Part shown: piece after piece, positions 6,660-39,722 of the stretch | Layout of the letters: each line of letters opens with the position of its first letter | Numbering within the stretch: the first letter of the stretch is position 1 | Source: a virus | Reading direction: 5' to 3' (one strand) | Length of the DNA: 40,953 nt | IMG/VR virus record: IMGVR_UViG_3300049734_000125 | Coordinates: 1-40,953 of that record | The notes under the pieces: generated by a model | Told to the model about the DNA's origin: nothing | Databases searched by the model: none | Seen by the model: only the letters and a program-made list of their open reading frames with translations | Made by a program: the position numbers and the translations under genes

Positions 6660-6680
6660 CCCCTGCCTATTTTCCAATCC

Positions 6681-7057: not shown

Positions 7058-7073
7058 CTGAAAGGAAATCGCC

Positions 7074-17731: not shown

Positions 17732-17735
17732 TGCG

Positions 17736-21993: not shown

Positions 21994-22409
21994 GCGCGGT
22001 AGAACACGATGTAATCACGCGACATGCGAAAGAGCTCGGCCACCTGATCGAAATCCTCGCGGCCCTGGTCGAGGAACGTGCCCATGATGGTGACGGTCTC
22101 GGTCGGCGAATTCGAGCCCCAGACGACATTCCCGGCAAAGCCGGTCATGACCTCATAGGCGGCATCGGCGAGTTGGCAGGCGCTATCATTGCGCAATGCC
22201 CAGGCATCCAATTGGATGCGGGTTTGCGCCAGCCGCGAATCGCCCTGCATGTGATAGTCGCCGGTCTCGTTGATGCGGTTGAACACGATCGACGGATCCT
22301 TTTGCCCTTGCGGCAGGCGCACGACATGGATGCGCACGCCGCCGACCAGCGAATTGACGGTCGAATCGGCGAGCAGGAGCGCGCGAACGGCGGCGCGAAT
22401 GTTTTTCAT
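21990..22409 (-). CDS. tail completion protein, DUF3168
   Basis: A 139-residue protein with ALLLADSTVNSLVGGVRIHV, PSIVFNRINETGDYHMQGDS and RIQLDAWALRNDSACQLADA, the standard DUF3168 pattern (R-Q-D-W-A). The C-terminus (EDFDQVAELFRMSRDYIVFY) completes the domain. It caps the tail tube for joining to the head. It is coupled by 4-bp overlaps on both sides. Confidence 0.9.
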   Translation of the reverse strand: MKNIRAAVRALLLADSTVNSLVGGVRIHVVRLPQGQKDPSIVFNRINETGDYHMQGDSRLAQTRIQLDAWALRNDSACQLADAAYEVMTGFAGNVVWGSNSPTETVTIMGTFLDQGREDFDQVAELFRMSRDYIVFYRA

Positions 22410-22765
22410 CGGTCGGTCTGCCTGGCGGTGATGATCTGCAACCCTTCCCGGCGCCCGATCTCGTTCACGGCCATCACGTCGTAAATCGAGGCTGTCGGCG
22501 GATCGCCAGCGTCGGCGGATGGATAGATGATGCGGTCGAGCGGCGTGAGATCGGCGAGATCGGATGACCAGCGGACGCGAAATTCAGTCTGCTGCCGGGC
22601 GATGTACTGCTCGCCGGAAAACCGCTCCTCGCCGCGCACCGGCGACACCGAGGCCGGCTTGTCGGCGGCGAGCGCCGACCATGTGTCGATCGGCTCGCCG
22701 GTGTCGGAATAGCTCGAGCTCTTGCGCTGGATGGTGATGTGACGATCGAGGCGCCCGGCTCTCAT
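22406..22765 (-). CDS. head closure/head-tail adaptor protein
   Basis: A 119-residue SPP1 gp16-like adaptor: MRAGRLDRHITIQRKSSS, EPIDTWSALAADKPASV, SGEQYIARQQTEFRVRWSSD, and a C-terminal YDVMAVNEIGRREGLQIITA. These are the conserved blocks of phage head-tail joining proteins (the H-I-RIT-Q, W and R-R-D patterns). It is separated from its connector gene by about 10 kb of decoration, lectin and glycan genes, which is unusual. Confidence 0.9.
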   Translation of the reverse strand: MRAGRLDRHITIQRKSSSYSDTGEPIDTWSALAADKPASVSPVRGEERFSGEQYIARQQTEFRVRWSSDLADLTPLDRIIYPSADAGDPPTASIYDVMAVNEIGRREGLQIITARQTDR

Positions 22766-22769
22766 ATCT

Positions 22770-24926
22770 CTAATTCGACCTCTTGCCTGAAGGGTTATTG
22801 TTGCGCCTGCCGATTGCGGCGTTCTGGCGTTTGCCGCGGGCTAGGTTCTCGCGCTGGCCTCTGGCGGTGTTGTCCCGTTCCGTCACCGGGAGATTCAAAT
22901 CGCGTTCCGAAGTTGTGCTCCTGGCCGGTGCAGGACCAGGCTCGCCCAACGAAATGAACGCGAACCATTGCTGCTGCCCAACCAGCAGCGCCGCCGGCAA
23001 TTTGACGGGAGTGCCGAGAGGGACGAACCATTTGTCGACGGTTACAACCTCCGGGGCAGGCGTGAAATAACCCCAGAATGCCGCCGCCTGATTGGCGACA
23101 CTTACCTTGCGGCGCGTCGGTTGCGACAGCGGTTGCAGCCATTTGTCGACGCGATCCGTGCGCTCGACAAACGGGACCGATATCAAGCCATCCGGCTGAC
23201 TTGGCTGCTCGACAATCACCGGCCGCGCGAACGGCTGATACCACTTGTCGAGCGTAACGATCTCATCCGAAGGGGTGAGATAACCCCAGGTAAAGACGGT
23301 CGGCGGTGCCGGTTGCCTGCGCCTGATCGGCTCCGACAACTGCCGATGCCACGCATATTCTTCGACCGTTCGCGGGAACGGATCGTTGATGCTCGCCGGG
23401 AGAGCTGCGACGCTATCCTTGCGCCGCATCGGCTCGGCAAATGGCGCGAACCATTTGTCGAGCGTAATCAGCTCATCCGAGACGTGAAGGTAGCCCCAAC
23501 AAAACTCTGTCGGAGGCGGTGGCTTCTTGCGCCGCATCGGCTCCGACAGCGGCCGATGCCAGGCGTATTCCTCGACGGTCCGCGGGAACGGATCGTTGAT
23601 GCTCGCCGGCACCGAGGCAACGCTGTCCTTGCGTCGGACCGGTTCGGCAAGCGATATATACCAGTCAATTTTGATGACCGGTTCTGAATAGAACGCGAAT
23701 TCTGTTGGCGGTGCCGAAACCTTGCGCCGCACTGGCTCCGACAGCGGTCGATGCCAGTCGATGGTTATTTGCGGGAACGGATCGTTGATGTTCGCCGGGA
23801 GAGCTGCGACGCTGGGCTTGCGCCGCACCGGCTCGGCAAGTGGCGAAAACCATTTGTCGAGGGTGACGACCTCGACGGCCTCGAGGAAGTAGGAATAGCT
23901 CAGCGCCTCCGGCTGCGGCCTGGTAGCGCGCGGCGTCGGCTGAGAGGGCGGTTGCTGCCAGCCTGTTATCTCGACAGGGACCGGCTGATGCAGCGAGGGA
24001 TAGAGCCGGTCCCTAAAATACGGAACCGAGATGACGATCGAGGTAGCCTTGACGGCATCGTCACCCGGCGTCGGAGGCGGCGCAACGATCGGTACCGCCT
24101 CGTGCAGCGACTTGTAGAGCGTCGCCCTCCGATACGGCACCGGCATCGATGCGGCGCTGGCGACGACATCGTTGTTACCCGGCGTCGGGACCGCCGATGG
24201 CGTCATCCCGCTCCAGAACAAACCCGCCGCCATGACCGCGACGGGCAGCACGCGAGGCGGAAACCGCGACGGATAGACGGCATCCGCGAAGGTCGGATCC
24301 TGGCGGAACGATGCCGTAGTCTGTGCGGCATTAACGGTCGAGCCGGCGCCGAACTGCGGCGTCACCGTCGCCGTACTGGTAACCACGATCCGTTGTACGC
24401 CGGTCGAGACGTTGGCGCGGGCGACCGTCTGCGTGATGACGCCGGGCGAGGTGGCTGTGAGCGTGACGTTGGCGGCGATGGCGCACGCCGCCATCACCAC
24501 TTCGTTCCGCTGCGCCAGCGTGCCGGTCGGAGGGCAATCGTGTGGCGAAGTGCCGTCGGTCGTGTTGGCCGGATTGGCGTCGAGCGGCGAGACGTGGAAC
24601 GGCCCCTCGATCACCGAGGCGACGGCACTGGCGTCGTTGACCGAGGCGGTGGCGGCGACCGACACCTGCGTCAGCGTGCCGGCGGCGGTGACGAGCGAAT
24701 AGAAGCAGCGGATCGTCGCGTTGCCGGCATCGGTGCCGGCGTTGACTGCAGTGTAGGAGTTGCCGAGATTGTCGCTCGCCGCCGTTGCGGTGAGCGCCGT
24801 CTGCTGCGAAAAGCAGACGAAGATCAGGTCAGCGACGGCGACTAAGACCGAGCCGGTGAGGTTGGTAGGATTGGTGACCGAGGCGACCGAGGCAGTCAGC
24901 GAGCCTTTGTGATCACCAAAGGCCAT
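22770..24926 (-). CDS. virion-associated repeat protein with W..PLSEPVRRK repeats
   Basis: A 718-residue protein in three parts. Residues 1-215 are a beta-rich, Thr/Ala-rich domain of the kind seen in virion surface proteins. Residues about 330-665 carry 9-10 copies of a motif like D-K-W-F-x-P-L-(A/S)-E-P-V-R-R-K, many separated by SVAALPASINDPFP and TVEEYAWHR. The last 40 residues are basic with octapeptide-like steps (RGQREN, LARGKRQN, AAIGRRNN, PSGKRSN). At DNA level the spacer GCGGGAACGGATCGTTGATG recurs at about 23372, 23582 and 23771. W-LSEPVR repeats occur in other phage genomes without known function. Probable structural protein. Confidence 0.75.
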   Translation of the reverse strand: MAFGDHKGSLTASVASVTNPTNLTGSVLVAVADLIFVCFSQQTALTATAASDNLGNSYTAVNAGTDAGNATIRCFYSLVTAAGTLTQVSVAATASVNDASAVASVIEGPFHVSPLDANPANTTDGTSPHDCPPTGTLAQRNEVVMAACAIAANVTLTATSPGVITQTVARANVSTGVQRIVVTSTATVTPQFGAGSTVNAAQTTASFRQDPTFADAVYPSRFPPRVLPVAVMAAGLFWSGMTPSAVPTPGNNDVVASAASMPVPYRRATLYKSLHEAVPIVAPPPTPGDDAVKATSIVISVPYFRDRLYPSLHQPVPVEITGWQQPPSQPTPRATRPQPEALSYSYFLEAVEVVTLDKWFSPLAEPVRRKPSVAALPANINDPFPQITIDWHRPLSEPVRRKVSAPPTEFAFYSEPVIKIDWYISLAEPVRRKDSVASVPASINDPFPRTVEEYAWHRPLSEPMRRKKPPPPTEFCWGYLHVSDELITLDKWFAPFAEPMRRKDSVAALPASINDPFPRTVEEYAWHRQLSEPIRRRQPAPPTVFTWGYLTPSDEIVTLDKWYQPFARPVIVEQPSQPDGLISVPFVERTDRVDKWLQPLSQPTRRKVSVANQAAAFWGYFTPAPEVVTVDKWFVPLGTPVKLPAALLVGQQQWFAFISLGEPGPAPARSTTSERDLNLPVTERDNTARGQRENLARGKRQNAAIGRRNNNPSGKRSN

Positions 24927-26950: not shown

Positions 26951-27424
26951 CTATTCGAAGAAATGCACCGTGCACATGATCGTCCCGGTATAGGCGGGAG
27001 ATTTCGCCCGGAACCCGATGCCGTTGACGTCAGTTGCCGGAACAATCAATTCACCGCCCGGTGAGGCGACCCACCTATACGATGCCCTTTGATTTACGGG
27101 AATTTCGATCAATTGGGTCGAGGCAGTTACGGTTGGCTCGGCAGTGTGATTGACCGTTTCCGTCACCAGGGCGGCAGCGTCGGCGGCATCGATTGGCGCC
27201 GCGGTTGCCGCGGTGCCGGTACCAACACTGGTCTGCCGATCGGCCTTGTACGTAAGCACGTTATCGGCTGGCGTGCCGTCAGCACCGAACATGGCGTCAT
27301 AGATATATGCGCGGCGAAGCGTGGTTGCGCCCGTTGCGGCGGTGAGGCTGATTGCAGTCTTGTAGGTCGTCGTCATCGCCTGCTGCGTGCCGGCGGTGCC
27401 GTTGCTGATAGCATACTTGGCCAT
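26951..27424 (-). CDS. putative decoration/virion protein
   Basis: A 157-residue Thr/Ala-rich, beta-rich protein: MAKYAISNGTAGTQQAMTTT, AISLTAATGATTLRRAYIYD, PADNVLTYKADRQTSVGTGT, and GGELIVPATDVNGIGFRAKS. The N-terminus resembles small phage proteins of head or tail decoration. TTTCTCC at the promoter side reads as GGAGAAAT on the minus strand before the ATG, a good ribosome site. It directly follows the glycan cassette and could be an acceptor, but this is not shown. Confidence 0.55.
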   Translation of the reverse strand: MAKYAISNGTAGTQQAMTTTYKTAISLTAATGATTLRRAYIYDAMFGADGTPADNVLTYKADRQTSVGTGTAATAAPIDAADAAALVTETVNHTAEPTVTASTQLIEIPVNQRASYRWVASPGGELIVPATDVNGIGFRAKSPAYTGTIMCTVHFFE

Positions 27425-27447: not shown

Positions 27448-28260
27448 CTAGTCAATCAACGCCCACAACGTGCCATCTACCAATTCATGCTCATTGAATT
27501 GGCAGTAAGCGAGAGACCATAGCCACGGCTCTCGATCCGGATAGATCGGATTTTCGATCTGCGAGAGATCGGTTTTGCCGACCAGCGCCGCCGCCGAGCT
27601 CGTATCGACGAACACCGGGCAGCCCATGATCACCGCCTCGACGCCGGCATTCGATCCATGCGTCACCAGAGCGTGAGCGCCTTGCAGGTCATCCCACAAC
27701 CGTCGCCCGCCGGGCATGCGATCGCTGGCTCGCCGCTGCATTTCCTTGGTGCGAAAAACCAGCGGTCGATCGGTAGCCGCTTGCAACTGCTTTACGGTCC
27801 TTTCAGTCCAATCCTCGATGCCGTGAAACTTCGCATAATACGGCGACGGCTCGGCGATGACGATGTGGTGGCCGCCGCGCGCCCACGGGATCACTTCTGT
27901 TTTCGTATGTATCCATCGATCGCTGGGCACCTGGCGAATCTTCGCCATCTGAAATGCATTGATGTGCCACCGGTACATGCCACCGTCTGCCCCGCGCGGC
28001 AGATCGGTTGCAAACACTCTGCGGCAATAACCACGGTCCCAATAGATCCACGTGCGACCGCGGGCCTGCCATCGATCGATCAACGGGCGCAACTCGGCCG
28101 TGCAGCCCACGATGGGGATCACATCGTCAGGCAACTGCGCGAGTTTGTCATAGTCGCGCACGCTGCCTCCGACCTTGCGGCCGATGCGGTCAAACAAATT
28201 TTGCTTGAAACCTTTCAGGCCCGGCGGGATGAACAAGCGTACCCGATCGGGATCGATCAT
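27448..28260 (-). CDS. glycosyltransferase, capsule-synthesis-like
   Basis: A 270-residue GT-B-type protein. The N-terminal half has SVRDYDKLAQLPDDVIPIVG and TWIYWDRGYCRRVFATD. The C-terminal half has RPLVFRTKEMQRR, then AHALVTHGSNAGVEAVIMGC and PVFVDTSSAAALVGK, which is the H-x-S-N-A-G-x-E-A-x-x-x-G-x-P pattern of capsule polysaccharide (KpsC/S-like) transferases. It is the last gene of the eight-gene cassette. The start at 28260 overlaps the previous stop as ATGA. Donor and acceptor cannot be told. Confidence 0.75.
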   Translation of the reverse strand: MIDPDRVRLFIPPGLKGFKQNLFDRIGRKVGGSVRDYDKLAQLPDDVIPIVGCTAELRPLIDRWQARGRTWIYWDRGYCRRVFATDLPRGADGGMYRWHINAFQMAKIRQVPSDRWIHTKTEVIPWARGGHHIVIAEPSPYYAKFHGIEDWTERTVKQLQAATDRPLVFRTKEMQRRASDRMPGGRRLWDDLQGAHALVTHGSNAGVEAVIMGCPVFVDTSSAAALVGKTDLSQIENPIYPDREPWLWSLAYCQFNEHELVDGTLWALID

Positions 28261-28901
28261 TGCCAATGCTGCCGTACCCATGGCAGTTTGGTGAACTTGG
28301 CGGGATCGCGCCAACCGGGAAACACCACGAGGCGCGCATCGGCCGGCAACCGATCGTCGCGCGGCCAGCCCGGTTTTTTGAACGCATAGATGCCGGAGCT
28401 CGAGCCGCATTGCCACGTCGCCGCCCACGGCAGTTTGTGCGCCAGCCATGCCTGATCATCGGGGAATGCATGGAACGGCACCGCACGCACCGCCTCGAGG
28501 CTGAAATCATTCCACACGTCGGCATGCTCGCCGCAGGTCAGCATCATGATCGAGCCGTTGTACGGACACGGGTTCACGCTATTGGCGCCGCCGAGAATGA
28601 TGAAACTCGCGTCGAGATCGAACAGCGGCGACAGGTCGCCGGTGATGACGACATCGAGATCGATGGTCACCAGCCGATCGCCCTGCCGCAATCCCTGCCG
28701 GTGCTGCCAGTGCGGATCGAACATCCGCAACCGCGCCAAGCAGCCGGGGGCTTGCGTTAACCATTCATCTTCCCATTGCGGCGTCGCCACTATGAACCGA
28801 TAAGGCGTCCGCATGTTGCGGCGGATGCCACGCGCCAATTTGCCTACATAATCGGCCGTATACTTGCTGCCCCAGATCCAGGTCGCGATGATCAGCGCCA
28901 C
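28257..28901 (-). CDS. GT-A glycosyltransferase
   Basis: A 214-residue protein with an N-terminal WIWGSKYTADYVGKLARGIR and TPYRFIVATP typical of GT-A nucleotide-binding folds. A metal-binding DLD at 81-83 lies in VTIDLDVVITGDL, and SFIILGGANSVNPCPYNGSI and AWLAHKLPWAATWQ follow. The arrangement is like glycosyltransferases that act on lipopolysaccharide. It overlaps the upstream methyltransferase by 10 bp and the next gene by 4. Confidence 0.8.
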   Translation of the reverse strand: MALIIATWIWGSKYTADYVGKLARGIRRNMRTPYRFIVATPQWEDEWLTQAPGCLARLRMFDPHWQHRQGLRQGDRLVTIDLDVVITGDLSPLFDLDASFIILGGANSVNPCPYNGSIMMLTCGEHADVWNDFSLEAVRAVPFHAFPDDQAWLAHKLPWAATWQCGSSSGIYAFKKPGWPRDDRLPADARLVVFPGWRDPAKFTKLPWVRQHWQ

Positions 28902-29473
28902 AGCACGCCGATGCCGTAGTAATTATTCGGCGGATATAAACGAAATTCTTTGAACCGCCGGCCCTGCTTGACGTCATTCCAGAATTTCGGTGTGCCCATC
29001 CGCGTCGCGTCCGGTGTATTGCCCTTGCGGCTGCGCCAGGTCTCGTTCCAGTTGATATCGTGGAATGCGACGAGGCGCGCCATCGGCCCGTAATTATTCC
29101 AATCGGCCTCAACGTATTCCGGCGCATGACAGCCATCGATGAACAGTGCATCATATGGCCCAAATTCGGCGACACGATCGATCGTTTCCGCCGCGGTGCT
29201 GTCGCCATGGATGAAATGCGCGTCATAACCGGATGCGCGCAATTGCCCGATGCATTCCTCCAAATCCGCCTTTGCATCCGGATGGTGCGCCATCTCGTCG
29301 ACGGCGACGACCCGCGACCCTCTCGGCAACGCCAGTGCAATGCGCCACAGCGAGCCGCCGAACAGTGATCCGATTTCGAGATAGGACCGCACTGATTCCT
29401 GGCGCAGAATTTGTATGAACGCTGCGAGCTCGTTCTTGTCCTGCAGCGGCTCGCCCTTGTATCGAGCGGCCAT
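28892..29473 (-). CDS. SAM-dependent methyltransferase, sugar O-methyltransferase type (copy B)
   Basis: A 193-residue class I methyltransferase: YLEIGSLFGGSLWRIALALP (motif I), VVAVDEMAHHPDA, FIHGDSTAAETIDRV, and FIDGCHAPEYVEADWNNYGP, then VAFHDINW. The D-G-x-H and F-H-D patterns resemble CmcI/rhamnosyl O-methyltransferase-type enzymes that methylate sugars. It shares the same framework and the ending YGIGVLWR with the next upstream gene, so the two are tandem duplicates. It is separated from copy A by 3 bp. Confidence 0.8.
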   Translation of the reverse strand: MAARYKGEPLQDKNELAAFIQILRQESVRSYLEIGSLFGGSLWRIALALPRGSRVVAVDEMAHHPDAKADLEECIGQLRASGYDAHFIHGDSTAAETIDRVAEFGPYDALFIDGCHAPEYVEADWNNYGPMARLVAFHDINWNETWRSRKGNTPDATRMGTPKFWNDVKQGRRFKEFRLYPPNNYYGIGVLWR

Positions 29474-29476
29474 TTC

Positions 29477-30043
29477 TCAGTACCTCCACAGCACGCCGAT
29501 GCCGTTGTCGCGCGGACAATTGCGGATCTCGACATGCCGATGCTGTTGCTTGATCTCGGCCCATATCCGCGGCACCTCGATCGGCATTTTCTTCGTCGGC
29601 TCGGGCCGGGCGATCCAGCCGACGTCGTGGAACGCCACCATGCGGCCGAGCTCGCCGTAGGCTTTCCAATCGGCGCGCACATAGGGCTCGGTATGATTGG
29701 CATCGATGAACACCAGATCGAACGGCCCGAGCTTTGTCACGTCCGCGATCACTTGCGGATCGGTGCTGTCGCCAATGAGCAGATAGGCCTCGTGACCGAG
29801 GCGCAAAAGATGATCGACACAGGCCTCGAGATGCGGCTGCGATTCCTTGAACGAACGATCGCCGTGCGGCAGATCGACGGCAACGATGCGCGAGCGTGGC
29901 GGCAGTTCCGAGCCGATGAACCAGAGCGAGCCGCCGTGCTTGCAGCCGATCTCGAGATAGCGGGTGACCTTTTCGCGCTTGATCAGATCGAGAAATTTCC
30001 GCATCTCGACGCGATCCTGCAGCATGGCGGTCTGGTACTTCAT
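29477..30043 (-). CDS. SAM-dependent methyltransferase, sugar O-methyltransferase type (copy A)
   Basis: A 188-residue enzyme: YLEIGCKHGGSLWFIGSELP, IVAVDLPHGDRSFKESQPHL, LLIGDSTDPQVIADVT, VFIDANHTEPYVRADWKAYG and VAFHDVGW. The blocks align one to one with copy B (YLEIG-GGSLW, GDST, FID-H-YV-ADW-YG, VAFHD, NGIGVLWRY end). Probably it methylates a hydroxyl on a sugar made by the neighbouring transferases. It starts by ATGA overlap with the GT9-like gene. Confidence 0.8.
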   Translation of the reverse strand: MKYQTAMLQDRVEMRKFLDLIKREKVTRYLEIGCKHGGSLWFIGSELPPRSRIVAVDLPHGDRSFKESQPHLEACVDHLLRLGHEAYLLIGDSTDPQVIADVTKLGPFDLVFIDANHTEPYVRADWKAYGELGRMVAFHDVGWIARPEPTKKMPIEVPRIWAEIKQQHRHVEIRNCPRDNGIGVLWRY

Positions 30044-30831
30044 GACAGCAACGCCTTCACCGCCTGCGTCACGTCGGTAAGCTTGATGGCGTCCAGCGCG
30101 TCACGGCAATGGTTGCACGGCCGCAGCGAACCGCATGCCGTCGTGGCGCCTCCGGTGAGATTGGCGTGCATTGCGTATCCGGTCACGGCCGGCGGGATCC
30201 AGGCGCCGAATATAACCACTGCAGGAACGTCGAGCGCCGCCGCGCCGTGATGCATTCCGCCCTCGTGCCCGATCCAGAGTTGCGCCCGCGACAACGCCGC
30301 CAGCGCCAGGCGGAACGTATCGGTGCGAATGCGAGCAACACCAGAAAGGTAATGCCGCGCGCCAGCGTATTGCAGTTGGCAGACATCATGGCCGCAATCG
30401 AGCAGAACATCGGCGAGGCGTTGCCACCGCTCGAGCGGCCATTGCTTGTTGATGGCAGCAGTCTTTTGCGGGACGTTCGGCTCGAGAATGATGGTCCCTT
30501 CGGTAATGGTGTTGGCAAAGGCGAGCTCGCCCTTGTCGAGGTAGATTTCGCCCGGCTGCGGCCGAAAATCATAATTCCAGATCCAGCGGCCGTTACGGCA
30601 TGTGTTGTATTGCCGGTTGCCCTTGTAATAGGCGATCCATTCGAGGTCGGCATCGCGTTCCGACCCGGGCGGCGCGACATTCGGATTGCCGCGAAAGATG
30701 TCTTTCGAGAACGGTCCCCAGATAATGCGCTTGCCGTCGCCGAAGGCGATGCGCTTGCCGCGGCGCGCCGCGCCCTTGGCCATGCCGGTGGCCATCAAAT
30801 CGTCCCCCGCGCCTATGGCCGCCTCCTCCAA
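30040..30831 (-). CDS. GT9-like (heptosyltransferase-type) glycosyltransferase
   Basis: A 263-residue protein. IILEPNVPQKTAAINKQWPL and ERWQRLADVLLDCGHDVCQL match the second half of heptosyltransferases, and AQLWIGHEGGMHHGAAALDV followed by PAVVIFGAWIPPAVTGY is the conserved G-x-E-G-G-x-H-A-A block. The N-terminal half is shortened relative to WaaC/WaaF (about 320 residues). A C-terminal CNHCRDAL Cys pair is unusual. It overlaps the upstream methyltransferase gene by 19 bp. Confidence 0.8.
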   Translation of the reverse strand: MEEAAIGAGDDLMATGMAKGAARRGKRIAFGDGKRIIWGPFSKDIFRGNPNVAPPGSERDADLEWIAYYKGNRQYNTCRNGRWIWNYDFRPQPGEIYLDKGELAFANTITEGTIILEPNVPQKTAAINKQWPLERWQRLADVLLDCGHDVCQLQYAGARHYLSGVARIRTDTFRLALAALSRAQLWIGHEGGMHHGAAALDVPAVVIFGAWIPPAVTGYAMHANLTGGATTACGSLRPCNHCRDALDAIKLTDVTQAVKALLS

Positions 30832-31391
30832 ATCGCGGCCGGCGCGTCATCGTGCGGGATGTGCGACCATTGCACGAGCTCGAGATGCGCCATCGTGAGA
30901 ACTGGCTCGATCTCGTCGAATTCGGGCTGCCCGCCGCGAAACAGGAAATAACCCTGGCAACAGTGCGCCAGGTCGATGACCAGTCGCGCCAGTGGCTCGG
31001 CACCCATGACCCGCTGCAGTTTGTGATGCACCGCCATGTAAACCACGATGTCATAGTTGCGGCGGAATTGATCGCCGAATGCCGCGGTGATCGCTTTCAT
31101 GCCGCCGCGCAGATCGACGACCTCGAAACGGCCTTCGACCGCGCGGATGTCGGCGAAGATTTCATTGGCGATGCGCACACCGTCGGCATAGTTATCGACG
31201 CCGTGGCACAGCGTGGCGCCATTCAATGCGAGCTCATACGAGATCATGCCGCGGTTGCAACCGATGTCGAGCACGCTGGCATCGCGGCAACGCATCAGCA
31301 CATCCGAAATGCCATCGAAGCGATAACCATGCCAGCCGATGGCGCGCCGCTGGAAACCACGTGTCGTCCATCCGTTGGTCGTTTTCACCAT
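30813..31391 (-). CDS. SAM-dependent methyltransferase
   Basis: A 192-residue class I methyltransferase: FDGISDVLMRCRDASVLDIG with motif I VLDIGCNRGMISYELALNG, then HGVDNYADGVRIANEI, FEVVDLRGG and YDIVVYMAVHHKLQRVMG. Family is not the same as copies A and B; it resembles small phage or glycan-locus enzymes with an N-R-G-M motif I. It may methylate a sugar or a lipid-linked intermediate. The Met at 31391 is preferred; the frame goes further into the upstream transferase gene. Confidence 0.75.
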   Translation of the reverse strand: MVKTTNGWTTRGFQRRAIGWHGYRFDGISDVLMRCRDASVLDIGCNRGMISYELALNGATLCHGVDNYADGVRIANEIFADIRAVEGRFEVVDLRGGMKAITAAFGDQFRRNYDIVVYMAVHHKLQRVMGAEPLARLVIDLAHCCQGYFLFRGGQPEFDEIEPVLTMAHLELVQWSHIPHDDAPAAIWRRRP

Positions 31392-32134
31392 TGCGCGCCG
31401 ACCGCATGCGGCACCAGTGCGCGCCAGTCGTCGGCGAACGGCTGCGCCTCGCAACCGGGCACGTCCGGCAGCCCGTTGGTGAAATGCACCAATGCCGGAT
31501 TTGCCATCGCCTGCCCGTTGCCGGCCAAAAAATTCCATTCTGGCGGCAGTGCGCCGATCTCGTCGTCGCGTAGCCAGCAAAACCGGTGCAGATCGCGGCC
31601 GGGCAGACGGTTGATCATCTCGACCGTCAGCCGCGCATTGCCAGGATGCTCGACATTGAACAGCATGACGCTCGACCAATTTTTCCGCGCGTAGCTGGTT
31701 TGGATTTGGCCATCCATTTTCGACGTCGCCTGCGGCCGGTGATCGTGCTGCACGCACATTACCGCATAGCGGTCATCGGCGAGCTCGAACAGATGCGAGA
31801 CGTTGCGCCGAAGCATCACGTCGCAATCGAGGTAGAGCGCCCATCCGTATCTGGCGAGATGCGGAACCAGGAACCGCGACACCGCGAATTCCGTCGCCAT
31901 GGGCGCGTCGCTCAAAGTATCCCACATCTGCCGCTCGCCGCGGCGGCCGTTGCGGATTTCGATCGGTCGCCGATAAAAGCCTTTTTCGATCAGCAAACGC
32001 AGATAGAGCCCGCGAATCGGGATATGTCGGTTGTGCCGGCGGATCGACCAGGAGGCCACGTCATAGGCCAGTTGCTGGCGCGGCTCGAAACCGATCCAGA
32101 TCGATTGATGCGGCGAGCTGGTCACAAGCCCCAT
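31385..32134 (-). CDS. GT8-like glycosyltransferase
   Basis: A 249-residue GT-A protein: SIWIGFEPRQQLAYDVASWS and HIPIRGLYLR, then WALYLDCDVMLRRNVSHLFE with metal-binding D-C-D at 103-105, MCVQHDHRPQATSKMDGQIQ and SVMLFNVEHP. These are the landmarks of GT8-like and related transferases (Y-L-D-x-D; S-x-x-L-F-N; H-F-T at LVHFTNGLPD). ATG 32134 chosen; a GTG at 32125 overlapping the upstream stop as GTGA is also possible. Confidence 0.8.
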   Translation of the reverse strand: MGLVTSSPHQSIWIGFEPRQQLAYDVASWSIRRHNRHIPIRGLYLRLLIEKGFYRRPIEIRNGRRGERQMWDTLSDAPMATEFAVSRFLVPHLARYGWALYLDCDVMLRRNVSHLFELADDRYAVMCVQHDHRPQATSKMDGQIQTSYARKNWSSVMLFNVEHPGNARLTVEMINRLPGRDLHRFCWLRDDEIGALPPEWNFLAGNGQAMANPALVHFTNGLPDVPGCEAQPFADDWRALVPHAVGAQW

Positions 32135-32778
32135 TGCCGAAACGTCTCGTCGATGCCGCGCTTGCGCAGACAGGTTATGCTCGAGCCGTTGCTGGCATTG
32201 ACGACGTCGATGCCGCGCGCCTCGAGCTCGGGCACGATGGCGGCGAGCGCCCGGCGCCAGCGGGAAAAATTGACCTCGCCCGGATTGTTCATGCCTTGCG
32301 CCTGATTGCGTCCATACCAGTGCACGCCGCCCTTGTCGTGGTAGTCGAAACCGATGAGCATGATGCCGGTCGCACCGAATTGCACGGCGAGGTTGATTGC
32401 CTGAAATCCGGAATTGCCACCGGAACCGATGATGCCCGGCTCCTCGACCAGCAGTTTGTCGACGTGCTTGACCTCGACGCAGACAAGATTCGGATAGCGC
32501 GATTTCGCCAGCCGCGCCTGGGTGATCTTGATGCCGCCGTAGTCGGGCAGGCCTTTGCGCCATATCCACCATGGCGCATCACAGCCATAGACGACCTCGG
32601 CCCATGGGGCGAGCTCGACATTTTGCTTTATGGCGATCACGTGAATACGATCACGCAGCCCCTCGACCGCTGCCTTGCTGGTCGACGGTCCCGAGGCGAC
32701 GATGGCGACGCACTCGCCGCGCCAATCCTGCCACCACGAAAACCTTGCCGGCCCGAGCTCGGCGGCGCGGTTGATCAT
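32122..32778 (-). CDS. DUF115-like protein of the glycan cassette
   Basis: A 218-residue protein with CVAIVASGPSTSKAAVEGLR, then GCDAPWWIWRKGLPDYGGIK, and the key block GSGGNSGFQAINLAVQFGAT followed by GIMLIGFDYHD. This resembles DUF115/MptE-like and GT42-like proteins, found in flagellin glycosylation and capsule loci, where they are thought to transfer nonulosonate or related sugars. It is the first gene of the cassette and overlaps the connector gene by 4 bp, so it is translated with the virion genes. Confidence 0.7.
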   Translation of the reverse strand: MINRAAELGPARFSWWQDWRGECVAIVASGPSTSKAAVEGLRDRIHVIAIKQNVELAPWAEVVYGCDAPWWIWRKGLPDYGGIKITQARLAKSRYPNLVCVEVKHVDKLLVEEPGIIGSGGNSGFQAINLAVQFGATGIMLIGFDYHDKGGVHWYGRNQAQGMNNPGEVNFSRWRRALAAIVPELEARGIDVVNASNGSSITCLRKRGIDETFRQWGL

Positions 32779-33395
32779 GCCATGCCGAGATGCATGCGCT
32801 TGCGGCGCAGCAGATCCTCGGCGTTGCGCGGAATCCGGCTGGCCGCCTGGCCGACGACGATATCCTCGCGGTGCTCGTACATGCTGCCGACCAGCAGCGA
32901 AATCGCCGAGATGATCGAGCCGGGGATGTTGCCGCGCAGGTCCGGCGGTGAATCGTCGGTCGGCGGATAGCCGGCGACGAAGCGAATGCGCACCGCATTG
33001 ATGCCGTCGAACGTGCTCGGCCAGGAGCCCGAGCTCACCGGCAGGATCCAGCCGAAGCCGCTTTCCTGATTGGATGTGTCGACGGTGTATTCGGAAGTGT
33101 CGAGCACCTGCGCGATGCCATCGCCGTCATCGTAGGTGACGCTGACAACCTCCTGCAGCGGCGGCAACGGGATACGGATTTCGTTGTCGGGGAATTCGTC
33201 GAGCACCAATTCCCAGGTCTGCGTCACCAGCGCGCGGGCGAGGAACCCTTCCGGCCCTTCGCAGTAGTCGGTCGCCTCGCCGATCAACTCCTCGATCAGC
33301 GTATCGTCGAAAGCATGATCGACGCGCAATCGTGCCTTCATGCGCTCGACCGTGATCGGCAGCACCGACGGCGCCTCGATGCGCACTAATCCCAT
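32775..33395 (-). CDS. head-tail connector protein
   Basis: A 206-residue protein. The N-terminal domain, PITVERMKARLRVDHAFDDT then LIEELIGEATDYCEGPEGFL, is the DnaT/gp6-like connector motif (A-R-L-R-V-D-x-x-x-D). The C-terminal part includes AVRIRFVAGYPP and IISAISLLVGSMYEHREDIV, as in phiE125 gp8 proteins. It forms the ring below the portal. It lies 4 bp after the collagen-like gene. Confidence 0.9.
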   Translation of the reverse strand: MGLVRIEAPSVLPITVERMKARLRVDHAFDDTLIEELIGEATDYCEGPEGFLARALVTQTWELVLDEFPDNEIRIPLPPLQEVVSVTYDDGDGIAQVLDTSEYTVDTSNQESGFGWILPVSSGSWPSTFDGINAVRIRFVAGYPPTDDSPPDLRGNIPGSIISAISLLVGSMYEHREDIVVGQAASRIPRNAEDLLRRKRMHLGMA

Positions 33396-33399
33396 GAGC

Positions 33400-34056
33400 T
33401 CACCATTTGCGACCGTCGAAACCTAGTTGCGTGAGATCGCGGCCGGGCGCACCGGCATCACCGCGCTCGCCCTTGGCGCCGGGCTTGCCGTCGCGGCCGT
33501 CGCGGCCGCGCTTGACCGCGAGGATCCAGCCGCTGTCGCTTTCCTCCGGCTTGCCTTTGATCGTCTCGACAGCGACGAACGTCGAGCCGGCATAGGTCAC
33601 GGCATCGCCCTGCGCATAGTCGCAATCGGCCTTGTATACGCCGCGATAGATTTGTACCGGCCAGGTCGCGCTGCCGATGATGCGCTCGCGGCCGTCGGCA
33701 CCCTTGCAGCGGAAAGTCACGGTCCGGCCATCCTGCACCGCCTCGAGCTCGTCGAAGCCGAGGCCGTCGAGACCGTCGCGGCCATCCTTGCCGTCGAGGC
33801 CTTTGTCGCCGGGCGCGCCGGGAATACCGGGCAGGCCGTCACGGCCGTCGCGGCCGGGCGAGCCTTCCGGCCCCGCCGGGCCAGGCTCGCCGCGGTCGCC
33901 CGGCTCACCCTTGTCGCCGCGCTCGCCTTTTTCGCCGCGGAAGTCGACACTTTCCAGCGCCTCGAGCCGCACGATCAGTTTGCGCAATTCGATTTCGACG
34001 TGTTCCTTGACCAGTTTGGCCAGCGTGGTGATGAGCTCGGCGTCGCGTGGCGTCAT
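33400..34056 (-). CDS. collagen-like fibre protein with a sugar-binding insert
   Basis: A 218-residue protein. Residues 1-42 form an amphipathic helix (AELITTLAKLVKEHVEIELR) suited to trimerise. About 45-105 are Gly-X-Y triplets (GEKGERGDKGEPGDRGEPGP and on). The next 80 residues (GVYKADCDYAQGDAVTYAGS; ESDSGWILAV) resemble a small chitin/carbohydrate-binding module (CBM5/12-like Y-G-D-V-Y). A second short Gly-X-Y run (GRDGRDGKPGAKGERGDAGA) ends it. It starts by ATGA overlap with the portal gene. It is probably a trimeric head or collar fibre and is a candidate acceptor for the adjacent glycan enzymes. Confidence 0.8.
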   Translation of the reverse strand: MTPRDAELITTLAKLVKEHVEIELRKLIVRLEALESVDFRGEKGERGDKGEPGDRGEPGPAGPEGSPGRDGRDGLPGIPGAPGDKGLDGKDGRDGLDGLGFDELEAVQDGRTVTFRCKGADGRERIIGSATWPVQIYRGVYKADCDYAQGDAVTYAGSTFVAVETIKGKPEESDSGWILAVKRGRDGRDGKPGAKGERGDAGAPGRDLTQLGFDGRKW

Positions 34057-35450
34057 GCCAGCGCCCTTTCCCATAGGTCGGCGATGGCGCGCTCGCGCCC
34101 GGCCTCGTCGCTCTCGTCGCCCTCATCCCCGTCGTCGGTGAGCTCGACGTCATCCTCGGGCGGCGGCGGCGCCGGTTCCGGCTTGGCGAACGGATCGCCG
34201 GCGTCGCGCTTGGCCAGTGCGGCGAGCGAGAAATTCTGCTCTTGGAGATACGGGCTCTCGCCGCCCTCGACCGGACCGAGATCGAATTTCTTGCGGCCTT
34301 CGTTCGGCGCCAGGAAGCCGGCGCGGATGGCATCGCCGACTGCCTTAACCTTGGTCGCCGTGTCCATGCGCAACAGATCGTCGGTATCGAATTCGCTGCC
34401 GTAGGTCTTGCCCTCGACCGCGGTGAGGCCGAGGCCGTCGTCGAGGCCGAGCTCGATTTTCTCGACGTACTTCTGCAGGCACTGCGAATAATACTGTTGC
34501 GACAGCGCCTCGACGTTGTTCCACGATGGCGGCGGCTCGACACCGATCATGTAGGGCGGCACGTGGAAGGCGGTGCAGATGGTCTGCGCCGACATCTTCA
34601 ACTGCTCGATCAGCTGCGCGTCGACGGCGTTGACCGACATCTGCTCGTATTTGAGGCCGTCGCCGAGCACCGCGATTCGCCCCACGTTCGTTCCGGTATA
34701 ATTCTGTTCCCAGTGATCTTTCAGGCGCCTGGCGGTGTCGTCACCGATGGCGCCCGGAGCGGTGAGGATGCCGCCGGGATTGGCGCCCTGCGAGAAAAAC
34801 TTGCTCGAGCTCCCGAGGATGTTCAATCCTTGTGCGGCGGCGAGCCCCGATGCCATCAATGGCGACACGCCGCAAAGCGGATGAAATAGCGGGGCATTGC
34901 GATCGTGGATGATCTCGGATGCCGGCACGGTTACCGTGCGCTGGAACTCGAGCCGCGGCAGCCGGTCGCTGCCGAGTTCATAGAACACGCTGCCGTCGGG
35001 CGCGACGAGCACTTTCACCCGCAGCGGATCGAGCACATAGAGACGGCGCACGATGCGCGATTGGTCGCGTTCTTTGAGCACATAGGTGTTGCCGTGGATG
35101 AGTTTGGAGAGCATCCACTGCTCATAGAATTCGATGCGGTTCTGGAAATGATTTGGCTTGCGCAGCACCGGCGAGAATGCCGGCGCCTCGATCTCGTGCC
35201 AGACGCCATCGGCGCTCCGCTCGACGAGGCGGATGCGCATTTTCGAGATATCGCCGGCGATGAGCGTGATGCAGGCGTATACCGCGTAGTAGGACAGGAT
35301 GGTTTCGGTGCGCAGTTCCTCGTTGCGCTGCCAGGCGCCGGTGAACGGCTCCCGCACGATCGGCCACCACCAATGACCGCGATCGCCGACGATGTTCGAT
35401 CCCGGCGGCGCCTGCTTGCGCAGGGTGATTTCGTAGCCGAGCACGCGCAT
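34053..35450 (-). CDS. portal protein
   Basis: A 465-residue HK97-type portal: NEELRTETILSYYAVYACIT, GNTYVLKERDQSRIVRRLYV, PLFHPLCGVSPLMASGLAAA, LKMSAQTICTAFHVPPYMIG and YYSQCLQKYVEKIELGLDDG are the conserved blocks. The C-terminal tail is acidic (DDVELTDDGDEGDESDEAG). It makes the dodecameric DNA gateway and docks terminase. It starts by TGATG overlap with the upstream small gene. Confidence 0.95.
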   Translation of the reverse strand: MRVLGYEITLRKQAPPGSNIVGDRGHWWWPIVREPFTGAWQRNEELRTETILSYYAVYACITLIAGDISKMRIRLVERSADGVWHEIEAPAFSPVLRKPNHFQNRIEFYEQWMLSKLIHGNTYVLKERDQSRIVRRLYVLDPLRVKVLVAPDGSVFYELGSDRLPRLEFQRTVTVPASEIIHDRNAPLFHPLCGVSPLMASGLAAAQGLNILGSSSKFFSQGANPGGILTAPGAIGDDTARRLKDHWEQNYTGTNVGRIAVLGDGLKYEQMSVNAVDAQLIEQLKMSAQTICTAFHVPPYMIGVEPPPSWNNVEALSQQYYSQCLQKYVEKIELGLDDGLGLTAVEGKTYGSEFDTDDLLRMDTATKVKAVGDAIRAGFLAPNEGRKKFDLGPVEGGESPYLQEQNFSLAALAKRDAGDPFAKPEPAPPPPEDDVELTDDGDEGDESDEAGRERAIADLWERALA

Positions 35451-35970: not shown

Positions 35971-38064
35971 TTACTCGTATTTCGCGAATTGAATATAATT
36001 CACCGCGGTACTTCTGCGCTTTTTGAAGTTGATCATCCGCTCGGCACGCAGCCCGACTAGATTGTGCTGCCACAAACTGACGAGATTTGTGGAACCGGTC
36101 GACGGGCTGTCCGGTGAACTGTCCATTTGCACCGAGGCTTCACGGCTGGCATCGACGGTCACGGCGCCGTCGTCGGCGAGCAGGATGTCGCGGGCGTTGA
36201 TGGCGACGATGAGCGATCCGTCGGTCGGCGAGCCGCCGCTGTCGACGATGTTCTGGCTGGCGATCACCGGGATGCCGACCAGCGTGCCGCCGTCGCGCGT
36301 CATGCCGGGGAACTCCGGCGTGCCGAGCGTGTTGACCATGAGCGAGATACGCATCGCCTGATCCTGCTTCATCACCAGCACGAGCGATCCGAGATCCATG
36401 TTGTCCCCGAGGAACTCGGCCAGCAGATCGCCGAGATCGGCACGGAGCGCATCGGCATTGGTGCCGCTGGCGTTGATGGGGGTGACGCCGTTGGTGATCG
36501 AGGCCGGGCGCACGCCGGTCTGCTCCGCCAGCGTCGGATCGAGAAAATCATGATCGACAAGTTCAGTGATCTTGTCACGCAGATCGTTGCGGATGATTTC
36601 CTCGGCTGCCGGGTTGCTGAAGCGCAGGAGCTCTTCGCTGATTATGACGATCCCCGCGACTTTTGTGTGTGTCAGCGTGATCTGATCGAAGACGAGCGCC
36701 GACACCGGCTTGACGCGGGTCTCGCCGATCCAGTTGACGGTCGAGCTGCCCGTCTGCCTTGGCACCTTGATATTGAACGGGACCCGCCTGATACCGGGAA
36801 TGCGGCCGATGATGCTGGCCATGCGCAGCATCTCGGCGAACTCCGATGTCAGATTGGTCGGCTCGACCAGCGGTGCCGCCCAGGTTGCATGCGTCGTTGT
36901 CCCGGCGTCGACTGCGGCGCGCAGATACATCTCGACCTCGGGCGTGTTGTGCCAAGCCGGCTCGGCCTTGGCGATGTCGGCCGGATGCCGCCGGTCCCAT
37001 CCCATGACGTTGCGAGTCTCGGCGATCAGCCGCCGCACGAAGGCGGTGCCGGGCGGCACGTTGGCCTTGACGCGGATCACCGGATAGCTCGAGCGGGCTT
37101 CGCTTGCGCGCGCGATCGTGGTGACGTTGTCGAGCGGCGTTGCCTGCGCGACGTTGCGGGCTTCGAGCTCGCGCAGCCGCTTCAAGTGTGCATCGATGCC
37201 GCCGAGCTCACGCTCGAGGCCATCGTATTCGTCGTTGGCTTCCGGCGCCAGCGTCTCGCCGGCGTCTGCCGCTTTCTGCATCATGTCGTTCATGCGTTCG
37301 AACTTGCTTTTACGCTGCTTTTCGAACGCCTCGATCTGTTCGAGGATGGTCATTGCTTTCGCCCCTTTCGGCGTGCGTGGTTTGCTTGATCCCGTGACGC
37401 CGGGCGAGTGAGCGTTGCCGTTTGCCTTGTGACCTGGCGCGGTCGGCGCGGCAGCGAGAGAACGGATGGTGGCGATGGTCGTCGAGGCGTTGGCCGGCAC
37501 GGTGACGAGGCTCAACTCCAAGACCTCTGACTTGATGAACCGGATGCCGCCGTCTTTCATCATGGAAGTTTCGCGGGCGCGAAAGCCGATCGAGACGCCG
37601 CGCACCAGCCCGGCCTTGATCGACTGCCAGGCCTCGTCGATGCGGTCTTTTAACCGGCCCGGCTCGTCGACCTTGGCCAGCCGGGCGGTGAAGCTGATGC
37701 CGTCTTTCGTCGGTTTCGCGAACGTGGCGGTGCCGACCGGCTCGGCGGCGCGATGCTGCCACAGGAGCGGCAATGGGTTCTTGAAACTCACACCGAGCGG
37801 CTCGACGATATCGCCGAGGCGGTCCGGTTCCGGCGTGGTGGCGGTGCCGGTGATGGTGCGCTGCTCGTCGGCAACCGATTTGATATTTATCAAGGCATAG
37901 GCGCGATCGACCGCGATAGCCGACTTGGCCGAATCCTCCCACATGCTCGAGCACATGGCGACGGCCTGCTCGGTATCGGCGGCGGCGCCGTCATCGATCA
38001 CGGCCGGAATGCAACGGTCCATCCATTCGTCCTTGCTTTCGGTCTGCGGATGTGGTGTCGGCAT
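35971..38064 (-). CDS. fused prohead protease-scaffold-major capsid protein (HK97 type)
   Basis: A single 697-residue frame. Residues about 45-200 are an HK97 prohead protease (S78-like): catalytic H104 in LPLLWQHRAAEP and Ser near 185 in VLELSLVTVPANAST. About 240-300 are a delta-type coiled coil (ILEQIEAFEKQRKSKFERMN; LGGIDAHLKRLRELEARNVA). The rest is an HK97-fold capsid: EFAEMLRMASIIGRIPGIRR, TVNWIGETRVKPVSAL and VLVMKQDQAMRISLM. An internal ATG at 37353, just before ILEQIEA, has GGGG upstream and could give a separate 460-residue capsid. Protease and capsid are usually two genes. The fused protein would need self-cleavage near the linker. Confidence 0.9.
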   Translation of the reverse strand: MPTPHPQTESKDEWMDRCIPAVIDDGAAADTEQAVAMCSSMWEDSAKSAIAVDRAYALINIKSVADEQRTITGTATTPEPDRLGDIVEPLGVSFKNPLPLLWQHRAAEPVGTATFAKPTKDGISFTARLAKVDEPGRLKDRIDEAWQSIKAGLVRGVSIGFRARETSMMKDGGIRFIKSEVLELSLVTVPANASTTIATIRSLAAAPTAPGHKANGNAHSPGVTGSSKPRTPKGAKAMTILEQIEAFEKQRKSKFERMNDMMQKAADAGETLAPEANDEYDGLERELGGIDAHLKRLRELEARNVAQATPLDNVTTIARASEARSSYPVIRVKANVPPGTAFVRRLIAETRNVMGWDRRHPADIAKAEPAWHNTPEVEMYLRAAVDAGTTTHATWAAPLVEPTNLTSEFAEMLRMASIIGRIPGIRRVPFNIKVPRQTGSSTVNWIGETRVKPVSALVFDQITLTHTKVAGIVIISEELLRFSNPAAEEIIRNDLRDKITELVDHDFLDPTLAEQTGVRPASITNGVTPINASGTNADALRADLGDLLAEFLGDNMDLGSLVLVMKQDQAMRISLMVNTLGTPEFPGMTRDGGTLVGIPVIASQNIVDSGGSPTDGSLIVAINARDILLADDGAVTVDASREASVQMDSSPDSPSTGSTNLVSLWQHNLVGLRAERMINFKKRRSTAVNYIQFAKYE

Positions 38065-38129
38065 GATTTCACCGTGACCTTTCGAGAAAGGTTTTCGGAA
38101 AGGGTTTCGACGTTGAAACGAGAAAGCTT
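38065..38129. other. intergenic dyads between large terminase and capsid genes
   Basis: A 65-bp gap with perfect short dyads CCTTTC-GA-GAAAGG (38078-38091) and GAAAGCTTTC at its upstream end, and repeated TTTCG(A/G)-type elements between. It may hold a regulatory or processing site in the late operon. I see no convincing promoter. Confidence 0.35.
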
Positions 38130-39722
38130 TCAGCCCACGAAATACATTCCGTAGGTCGGCGCCGGCTGCTCGACCAGGCTCGGCGCCGCACCTAATGCCA
38201 TCGTCAACGCGATCATGCCGTCGATGCGTGCCGGCGATTTCTTCCGGTTCAAGCAGCGGTTGCCCTTGGCGTCCTTGTCGACGACGGCATTGGCCGCGCA
38301 CATCGACAGCACCGGATGGTCGCCGTGCGCCATGCGCTCATTGATGAGCTCGGCCTCGAGGTCGCGCAGCGCCGGCGACATCGATACATATCCCTGGCCG
38401 AACTCCATGAACGTCGCCTCGATCTGCGCGTCGGTAAACCCGGCTTTGCCGAGCCACGGCCGCAGATGGCGGAAATTCCAGCGATCGAAAGCGATCTTGT
38501 GGATGTTGTATTTCTCGAAACAGCCGCGGACATACTCGGCAACGAATTCGTAGTCGACCGACTTGCCGGGCGCCACATTCAAGAAACCCTGCTCGCGCCA
38601 GAGATCCCACGGCACCCGATCGGTGCGCGCCTTTTCGCGCAGGCCATCTCCCGGCAGCCAGAATGTCGGATGCACCTGCCACACGTTGTCGACCTTGCCG
38701 ATGAGTACGAAGGCGGTGAGATCGCGCGTCTCAGACAGATCGAGGCCGCCGTATACCGGCACGTTCCCGAACGGTTTCACCGGCTTGCCGCAGGCCGACC
38801 AGACGTTGCGCGAGATGAATGGCGAGGAGGCCTCGACCCGCTGATTGAGGATCAAATTTCGGAATTCCGCCTCGCGCGCCGGCATGCGCTTGGCGTCCTC
38901 GGCCATCGCCATGACTTCCCGCGCGTTGAGGAAATCGCCGAATGCCGGATTGGCCAGCTTGATCGTCTCGGCCGCAAAAGGATCGAGGCCGACCGGCGCC
39001 GTGTACAGCGACAGCGTCACCCGCGGATCGTTGCCGGCGGCGGCATCGTCGATGAGCATCGAGAGCAGGTCGCTGTCGGTCGGCGCCTGCGTCGAGATGA
39101 TCACCGAGAGCGGATCCTCCTGCGCGCCGGTCGCGGTCTCGAGCGCCTCGTAAAGTTGCGAGCGGTTGCCGCGCTCGAGGCCGAGCTCGTCGTGCACCAG
39201 GAACGCCGGCGACAGCCCGTAGGCGGTCGAGGCCTCGGCGGCGAGCGCCCGGTACACCGTGCCGAGCTCCGGGCACAGCAGTTGCTTTGCCGTGTCCCGA
39301 ATCTGCACGGTGGCCAGCAGGTCCGGCGACATGCGGATGATCTTTGCCGCCAGCGAGAAAATGATACCGGCCTGCTCGCGCGATTGCGCCGCCGAGTAAA
39401 GCTGTGAATTCGGTTTCGCCCGCGGTCCGCACAGATGCAGCAGCAACAGGAACGCCGCCAGCGTGGTCTTGGCATTCTTGCGCCCGAACGACACGATCGC
39501 CCGCCGCGTGCCGGCCTCGTTGTCGTAAATCTTGCGGATTTCGTTCTGCTGCCACACCCGCAGGATCACCGGCTTGCCGACGTCCTTGCCTTCCGGAATG
39601 CGGCAATACCGCTGGATCCAGTCGATCGCCTGATTGCCGCGACTATGCCGACCCGATGTTGTCGCTGTCCCACGGGCGAGCGGTTGGTGTGAGCTTGGTT
39701 GGTGCGGCGTAGTATTTTGCAC
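38130..39722 (-). CDS. terL: terminase large subunit
   Basis: A 530-residue HK97-type terminase. The ATPase has a Walker A-like GRKNAKTT at 80-87 and Walker B AFLVHDELG with D178-E179. The nuclease begins at VYGGLDLSETRDLTAFV with the first Asp; later LSMCAANAVVDKDAKGNRCL and PARIDGMIALTMALG supply the last metal-binding Asp. The start is a GTG at 39722, inside the small-subunit gene (80 bp overlap); no ATG exists before the ATPase. It cuts DNA and drives packaging. Confidence 0.95.
   Translation of the reverse strand: MQNTTPHQPSSHQPLARGTATTSGRHSRGNQAIDWIQRYCRIPEGKDVGKPVILRVWQQNEIRKIYDNEAGTRRAIVSFGRKNAKTTLAAFLLLLHLCGPRAKPNSQLYSAAQSREQAGIIFSLAAKIIRMSPDLLATVQIRDTAKQLLCPELGTVYRALAAEASTAYGLSPAFLVHDELGLERGNRSQLYEALETATGAQEDPLSVIISTQAPTDSDLLSMLIDDAAAGNDPRVTLSLYTAPVGLDPFAAETIKLANPAFGDFLNAREVMAMAEDAKRMPAREAEFRNLILNQRVEASSPFISRNVWSACGKPVKPFGNVPVYGGLDLSETRDLTAFVLIGKVDNVWQVHPTFWLPGDGLREKARTDRVPWDLWREQGFLNVAPGKSVDYEFVAEYVRGCFEKYNIHKIAFDRWNFRHLRPWLGKAGFTDAQIEATFMEFGQGYVSMSPALRDLEAELINERMAHGDHPVLSMCAANAVVDKDAKGNRCLNRKKSPARIDGMIALTMALGAAPSLVEQPAPTYGMYFVG

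Follow-up and report, generated by a model that had tools for sequence, protein, structure and literature searches.

What are eight genes, apparently for building and methylating a glycan, doing among the genes that make up a phage particle? The question is raised by eight minus-strand open reading frames (ORFs) at positions 27448-32778 of IMG/VR virus record IMGVR_UViG_3300049734_000125, which was analysed in full (40,953 bases, hereafter the window) and comes from an alphaproteobacterial phage. The genes were named G1 to G8 by order of transcription, which runs leftward, and are together called the cassette. A sequence-only reading had recognised in them GT8-like, GT9-like, GT-A and capsule-type glycosyltransferases, a DUF115-like protein and three S-adenosylmethionine (SAM) methyltransferases, and this composition was borne out by the ORF calls, by family profiles and by the folds of G1 and G8. 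With moderate confidence, we read the cassette as a phage-specific, modular, late pathway that would equip the phage's own virion with an O-methylated glycan.

Recurrence and conservation of the cassette

Searches of IMG/VR with G2 and G8 returned 103 rows. A search for G8 in 84,980 bacterial and archaeal genomes returned five loci, two of them in Mesorhizobium, one in Bradyrhizobium, and one each in metagenome-assembled genomes of Phenylobacterium and Hyphomonadaceae. ORFs were predicted in every locus and scored by profiles from the window genes and their close hits. With seeds of this kind divergent cassettes are undercounted, and many of the metagenomic contigs are short. At least four cassette families were found in 73 loci, or in 59 after near-identical loci were removed. 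The search for the same set in other phage genomes, proposed in the sequence-only reading, thus showed that the set recurs, mostly among packaging, head and neck genes.

Two features were common to these loci. Firstly, the gene order was constant, i.e., G1, G2, G4 and G3 in either order, G5, G7 and G8, with G6 often missing, and the cassette genes lay on a single strand in 59/59 non-redundant loci. Secondly, the nearest recognised flank was a packaging, head, neck or tail gene in 48 of the 59. Five of the other 11 precede genes for a head scaffold (phrog_206) and a Gp13-like capsid, a head type unrelated to the fused protease-capsid of the window; phage CcrColossus, with tail genes before its cassette, is also among the 11. 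At least three places of insertion were found: between adaptor and head closure, as in the window; between capsid and portal (Mesorhizobium prophages L119 and L121, and also L044, L048-L050 and L202); and before scaffold and capsid (Bradyrhizobium locus L122, and L057 and L067). The ratio of nonsynonymous to synonymous divergence (dN/dS) of the cassette genes was 0.04-0.17 in close pairs where changes sufficed, and similar for structural genes, indicating purifying selection. Since set and order are conserved in 73 loci, and the comparable members are under purifying selection, the cassette is not a chance assembly. Against its relative L010, dS was 0.22 in G1 and 0.006-0.05 in G2-G4 (31385-32778); this drop makes recombination inside the cassette likely, with a breakpoint between G1 and G2.

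A control set of 80 loci was chosen without regard to the cassette by portal alignment, which was used instead of a scan with the single window portal sequence, as the latter found few relatives. Among the 37 control loci with at least 6 kb past the portal, 9 carried at least three cassette families, 8 carried one or two, and 20 carried none. This portal lineage thus carries the cassette as an accessory module. G1 was present in 26 of the 28 portal-lineage loci having any cassette member. Some loci with few members hold, beside G1, FkbM-type and Methyltransf_24-type methyltransferases, a nucleotide-diphospho-sugar transferase below the cutoff, and a glucosyltransferase-like protein. Extra enzymes in cassettes were TylF-type methyltransferases in 16 loci, hexapeptide acyltransferases in 14 and FkbM methyltransferases in 9. 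The picture is one of a near-constant G1 with exchangeable partners that add or decorate sugars. A minimal cassette of G1 only was not established: L158 and L159 have other methyltransferases or transferase-like neighbours, and the tested proteins of L129, L162, L203 and L205 matched nothing.

Setting within the virion operon

The operon of the window reads, leftward, terminase, fused protease-major capsid, portal, collagen-like protein, head-tail adaptor, cassette, unassigned proteins, head closure, tail genes and amidase. The start of G1 overlaps the adaptor stop by 4 base pairs (bp). Counting from the adaptor, there are eight junctions up to G8, and six of them overlap, by 4, 13, 7, 4, 10 and 4 bp; G5/G6 has a 3-bp gap and G3/G4, with the favoured start, a 17-bp gap, which becomes a 19-bp overlap only with the alternative TTG start of G4 at 30831. 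The claim that nearly every junction is an overlap of 4-19 bp was therefore a small overstatement. The cassette is separated from the next gene by 23 bp, and that gene has a ribosome-binding-like GAGGAG. The cassette had also been placed between a head-tail connector and decoration or fibre genes; the upstream half of this holds, with the adaptor in that place, and the downstream genes matched no informative family. Altogether, the analysis supports a cassette that is physically built into the virion genes as a multi-step methylating glycan module.

Enzyme families and predicted folds

The assignments of the cassette and flanking genes are collected in Table 1. G2 reached the cutoff of PF01501 (GT8) marginally, with 24.4 bits against 24.3, and G4 that of PF01075 (GT9) with 34.3 bits against 22. 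G4 is not a heptosyltransferase I by the NCBIfam equivalog cutoff (28.7 against 185.3 bits), the similarity being weak. G8 had no significant Pfam or PHROG family and is a glycosyltransferase by fold. No convincing membrane span was seen in any cassette member, the top 19-residue hydropathy being 1.67 (G4, G8), and no gene for sugar-nucleotide synthesis was recognised within the cassette.

Table 1. Genes of the cassette and its neighbours in the window, in order of position on the minus strand.
Feature	Coordinates	Strand	Family or structure evidence
Portal	34053..35450	-	phrog_2271, E 2e-123
Collagen-like (Gly-X-Y) protein, upstream flank	33400..34074	-	PF01391, E 3e-15
Head-tail adaptor (gp6-like), upstream flank	32775..33395	-	phrog_442, E 1e-26
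G1, Maf / GT42-sialyltransferase / MptE-superfamily protein, proposed initiating transferase	32122..32778	-	phrog_4603 'alpha-2,3-sialyltransferase', E 2e-34
G2, GT8-type GT-A glycosyltransferase, LDCD (DxD-type motif)	31385..32134	-	PF01501; phrog_28018, E 3e-44
G3, class I SAM methyltransferase	30813..31391	-	sub-cutoff matches to Methyltransf_23/25/31 and UbiG
G4, GT9 (heptosyltransferase-type) glycosyltransferase	30040..30795	-	PF01075, E 2e-8
G5, Methyltransf_24 / RMNT_CmcI-type O-methyltransferase	29477..30043	-	PF13578, PF01596, PF04989 above cutoffs
G6, second Methyltransf_24-type methyltransferase, related to G5	28892..29473	-	PF13578 above cutoff
G7, GT-A type glycosyltransferase, DLD motif	28257..28901	-	phrog_1962 glycosyltransferase, E 4e-10
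G8, GT-B protein, retaining Kdo transferase fold, active-site motifs replaced	27448..28260	-	structure match
First gene after the cassette, 157 amino acids, 21% Ser+Thr; possible head protein, possible acceptor	26951..27424	-	no family match
Head closure Hc1, next recognised virion gene downstream	22406..22765	-	phrog_25, E 2e-7

The AlphaFold model of G1 had a predicted local distance difference test score (pLDDT) of 95.9. Foldseek ranked the GT42 sialyltransferase CstII first. With a second aligner, the top solved match was the Magnetospirillum Maf flagellin glycosyltransferase 5mu5 (Z 15.4, root-mean-square deviation 3.0 Å over 179 of 218 residues, 16% identity); further matches were CstI/CstII (Z 11-12.5) and archaeal HPPK (Z 11). 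With Maf enzymes G1 shares the central Maf_flag10 fold. Profiles of G1 and G8 gave chance matches only against PDB sequences. Maf enzymes attach ulosonic acids to flagellin at Ser/Thr; two Maf enzymes accept 3-deoxy-D-manno-oct-2-ulosonic acid activated by cytidine monophosphate (CMP-Kdo; PMC11339370). Among the cassette members, only G1 has as its closest relative by fold an enzyme known here to glycosylate proteins directly. Because of this relative and of its near-constant presence, we propose from fold and distribution that G1 may start the glycan.

The model of G8 (pLDDT 88.5) matched the retaining Kdo transferases KpsC (GT107), WbbB (GT99) and KrkA (GT140), which have a modified GT-B fold, with Z 12.0-8.6 over 205-235 residues. 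Common to enzymes of this type are an HP motif and a nucleophile motif, QxxxD (PMC12887879, PMC9587256). Among 26 G8-clade sequences QxxxD had no conserved column, the position of its Asp being taken by the invariant Tyr142, and the (K/R)xHP CMP-binding motif was found in 0/26, with RxKE instead (R170-x-K172-E173; Lys172 and Glu173 invariant). G8 was accordingly rejected as a true retaining Kdo transferase: the fold fits, both catalytic motifs are replaced in its clade, and it should not be filed under that name. Distant relatives of G8 in genomes of the same order keep QxxxD and HP, and two of them, in prophages (L216 499-2500 and L217 1-3170), adjoin adaptor or head-closure genes. Judged by their motifs, these two are possible true Kdo transferases in virion operons.

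Proposed function

If the cassette decorates the virion, it would be transcribed late together with the structural genes, as its position suggests. In the cytoplasm, G1 would put the first sugar on a Ser/Thr residue of a freshly synthesised virion protein, much as Maf does with flagellin; the donor would be a CMP-activated ulosonic acid, possibly host CMP-Kdo. G2, G4, G7 and G8 would then lengthen the chain from host nucleotide sugars, and G3, G5 and G6 would methylate glycan hydroxyls. As phage assembly is cytoplasmic, no lipid carrier or flippase would be required. The variable partners in relatives (TylF, FkbM, hexapeptide acyltransferase) may diversify the glycan in the way O-antigen loci do. 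The likely benefit would be a tuned attachment, or protection of the particle against proteases, binding or entrapment in debris of the host. Virion self-decoration, as the sequence-only reading had suggested, is still the best reading, given the position among virion genes and direct precedents in mycobacteriophages; its collagen-like target and its claim that there was no precedent did not stand. More tentatively, the cassette may be an O-antigen-like transferable module of alphaproteobacterial phages, making a multi-sugar O-methylated glycan directly on head or neck proteins by a Maf-type starter using CMP-ulosonate and a remodelled enzyme of Kdo-transferase fold, with modules and partners swapped to change the coat.

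Several results weigh against virion decoration. G1 scored 20.6 bits against PF01973 (MptE-like/DUF115), below the cutoff of 34.6. Maf enzymes have three domains, whereas G1 is a single 218-residue domain without the N- and C-terminal ones, and its superfamily includes MptE and sialyltransferases, whose substrates are pterins or glycans. Profiles of G1-G8 had no hit at E<=10 among gp33-gp36 of mycobacteriophage Firecracker, whose comparable gene set is treated below. No acceptor protein could be singled out. The C-termini of mycobacteriophage capsids are a reported acceptor site (PMC12619734); as a target here the capsid C-terminus was rejected, showing no visible difference by cassette content. 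In Citrobacter phage phiNP (L127 8316-9501) G1 and G7 lie between lysis and terminase genes, near the small terminase. In Pelagibacter phage Mosig (L003) the relatives of G2, G8 and G7, accompanied by two methyltransferases and a sulfotransferase, lie outside the virion genes, among genes of nucleotide metabolism. Finally, lipopolysaccharide (LPS) and capsule synthesis likewise draws on every one of the families concerned (GT8, GT9, GT42 and Kdo-type).

The last two points also speak for the main rival, late remodelling of the host surface, in which the enzymes would modify precursors of LPS core or capsule from the cytoplasm, and either spare the progeny from trapping on debris or block superinfecting phage. 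We consider it rather unlikely, even though it fits the enzyme families (GT8, GT9 with its weak similarity to heptosyltransferase I, the GT42-like and the Kdo-transferase-like folds) equally well. LPS-core enzymes act on the cytoplasmic face without a flippase, and one distant chromosomal relative of G8 adjoins a GT8+Capsule_synth protein. What holds this explanation back is mainly the location among virion genes, kept through at least three relocations, and the restriction of close G8 relatives (>400 bits) to viruses and prophages in the samples searched, by peptide patterns or in sets of about 400 genomes. Further, no membrane or lipid-carrier gene was recognised, and the outlay would be big for a cell soon to be lysed.

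Within virion decoration, the collagen-like protein had been suggested as the target, and could be a dedicated acceptor in the manner of glycosylated collagen-like proteins elsewhere. Its gene immediately precedes that of the adaptor, and its Gly-X-Y repeats contain Lys. However, in the portal-selected control set such a protein stood by the portal in 7 of 9 loci with the cassette and in 14 of 20 without it (Fisher p=1), and in the cassette-bearing lineage with Gp13-like capsids none was found within 10 kb. Its Ser+Thr content is also low, 7%. Portal-adjacent collagen repeats are a trait of the portal lineage irrespective of the cassette, and a dedicated collagen-like acceptor is improbable. 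By composition and position, the Ser/Thr-rich product of the first gene after the cassette is a candidate acceptor.

Slightly less credit still is given to a lysogenic-conversion gene set with its own expression, altering the surface of the lysogen. The phage of the window does look temperate: its plus strand carries genes for an integrase and a repressor-like protein, and there are prophages among its relatives. On the other hand, the 4-bp overlap of G1 with the adaptor leaves no space for a separate promoter, and promoter-like matches in the cassette were not in excess (5 against 3.9+-1.7 in shuffles), nor were terminator-like sites. A conversion unit with its own promoter, which had been named as one case that would speak against virion decoration, is thus not what these sequences look like. 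The single strand of all non-redundant cassette loci and the version in CcrColossus, whose lineage we take to be virulent, point the same way. Modification of phage DNA or of a small molecule is very improbable: glycosyltransferases acting on hypermodified phage DNA are known (Pyle et al. 2024, cited in PMC12619734), but no nucleotide-hypermodification gene was seen near the cassette, the families are of O-glycan and LPS types with O-methyltransferase-like partners, and the cassette stands among head and neck genes instead of replication genes.

Other features of the window

The head maturation protease and the major capsid protein form a single ORF (35971-38301, minus strand, phrog_617), as in Pseudomonas phage PAJU2. 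On a circular or permuted genome, the virion operon would be preceded by the gene for a NusG-family protein (PF02357; 1047-1685, minus strand), possibly a late antiterminator. The glycine-rich tail protein at 14084-17743 (minus strand, 1219 amino acids) contains a pair of LamG-type lectin domains, and its C-terminal part matches the T-even adhesin GP38. The protein at 22770-24926 (minus strand, 718 amino acids) has repeated SEPVRRK-type blocks and no family match, and is encoded by the fastest-evolving gene compared (61% identity and omega 0.35 against L039). On the plus strand, the low-complexity His/Arg/Ser/Ala/Pro/Thr ORFs 6656-7081 and 7658-8146, on either side of a normal-looking gene (7074-7661), are degenerate tandem arrays of 15, 20, 25 and 35 bp of the CGCACCGC type and possibly non-coding repeats.

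Comparison with known systems

It had been stated that no described system has this make-up. That statement is wrong. Between portal and protease, Cluster O mycobacteriophages carry genes for an O-methyltransferase, for two glycosyltransferases and for a putative N-acetylglucosaminyltransferase; the enzymes were detected in infected cells, not as virion proteins, and capsid modification was proposed in 2015 (PMC4351075). We found this arrangement as described in the Firecracker and Dylan genomes. For Che8, Corndog and Myrna, glycosylation of virion proteins has been reported (Freeman et al. 2023, as cited in PMC12363180; also PMC12619734).

In alphaproteobacterial phages, CcrColossus has G1, G8, G2, a methyltransferase and a GT9 gene directly after the tail genes and before the lysis genes. 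Relatives of G1 lie by head or tail genes in CcrColossus and related Caulobacter jumbo phages (gp126-gp131), in Tetraselmis 'virus' S20, in PAJU2 (where the profiles recognise G1 only) and in P1 (pmgO/pmgP, a G1 match by tblastn), some with several other members. The sets in CcrColossus, S20, PAJU2 and P1 are partial and are annotated as hypothetical or by names of single enzymes. No description of the alphaproteobacterial cassette was found in the searchable literature, which mostly lacks subscription papers and preprints.

As far as could be found, it is in mycobacteriophages that phage enzymes have been shown to glycosylate virions. If our reading is true, virion glycosylation would be a widespread trait of Gram-negative phages, and glycosylated phages would be recognisable from sequence alone. 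It would also offer a compact cytoplasmic pathway of protein glycosylation, begun by a Maf-type enzyme and including a remodelled Kdo-transferase fold, in the tractable hosts Mesorhizobium, Bradyrhizobium and Caulobacter.

The closest parallel is Cluster O (Corndog, Firecracker, Dylan), in which transferase and O-methyltransferase genes likewise overlap one another within the head operon; as in loci of the Corndog type, the glycosyltransferase genes of the window lie inside the virion structural operon. Common ancestry with the Corndog-type enzymes was rejected for lack of detectable similarity, with Firecracker as representative. Cluster O has four genes against eight here, an actinobacterial host, and no recognised member of Maf type or Kdo-transferase type. 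By sequence comparison, then, what is new relative to Cluster O is an unrelated and larger enzyme set, a new host group, and transfer between unrelated phage heads; the idea is the same.

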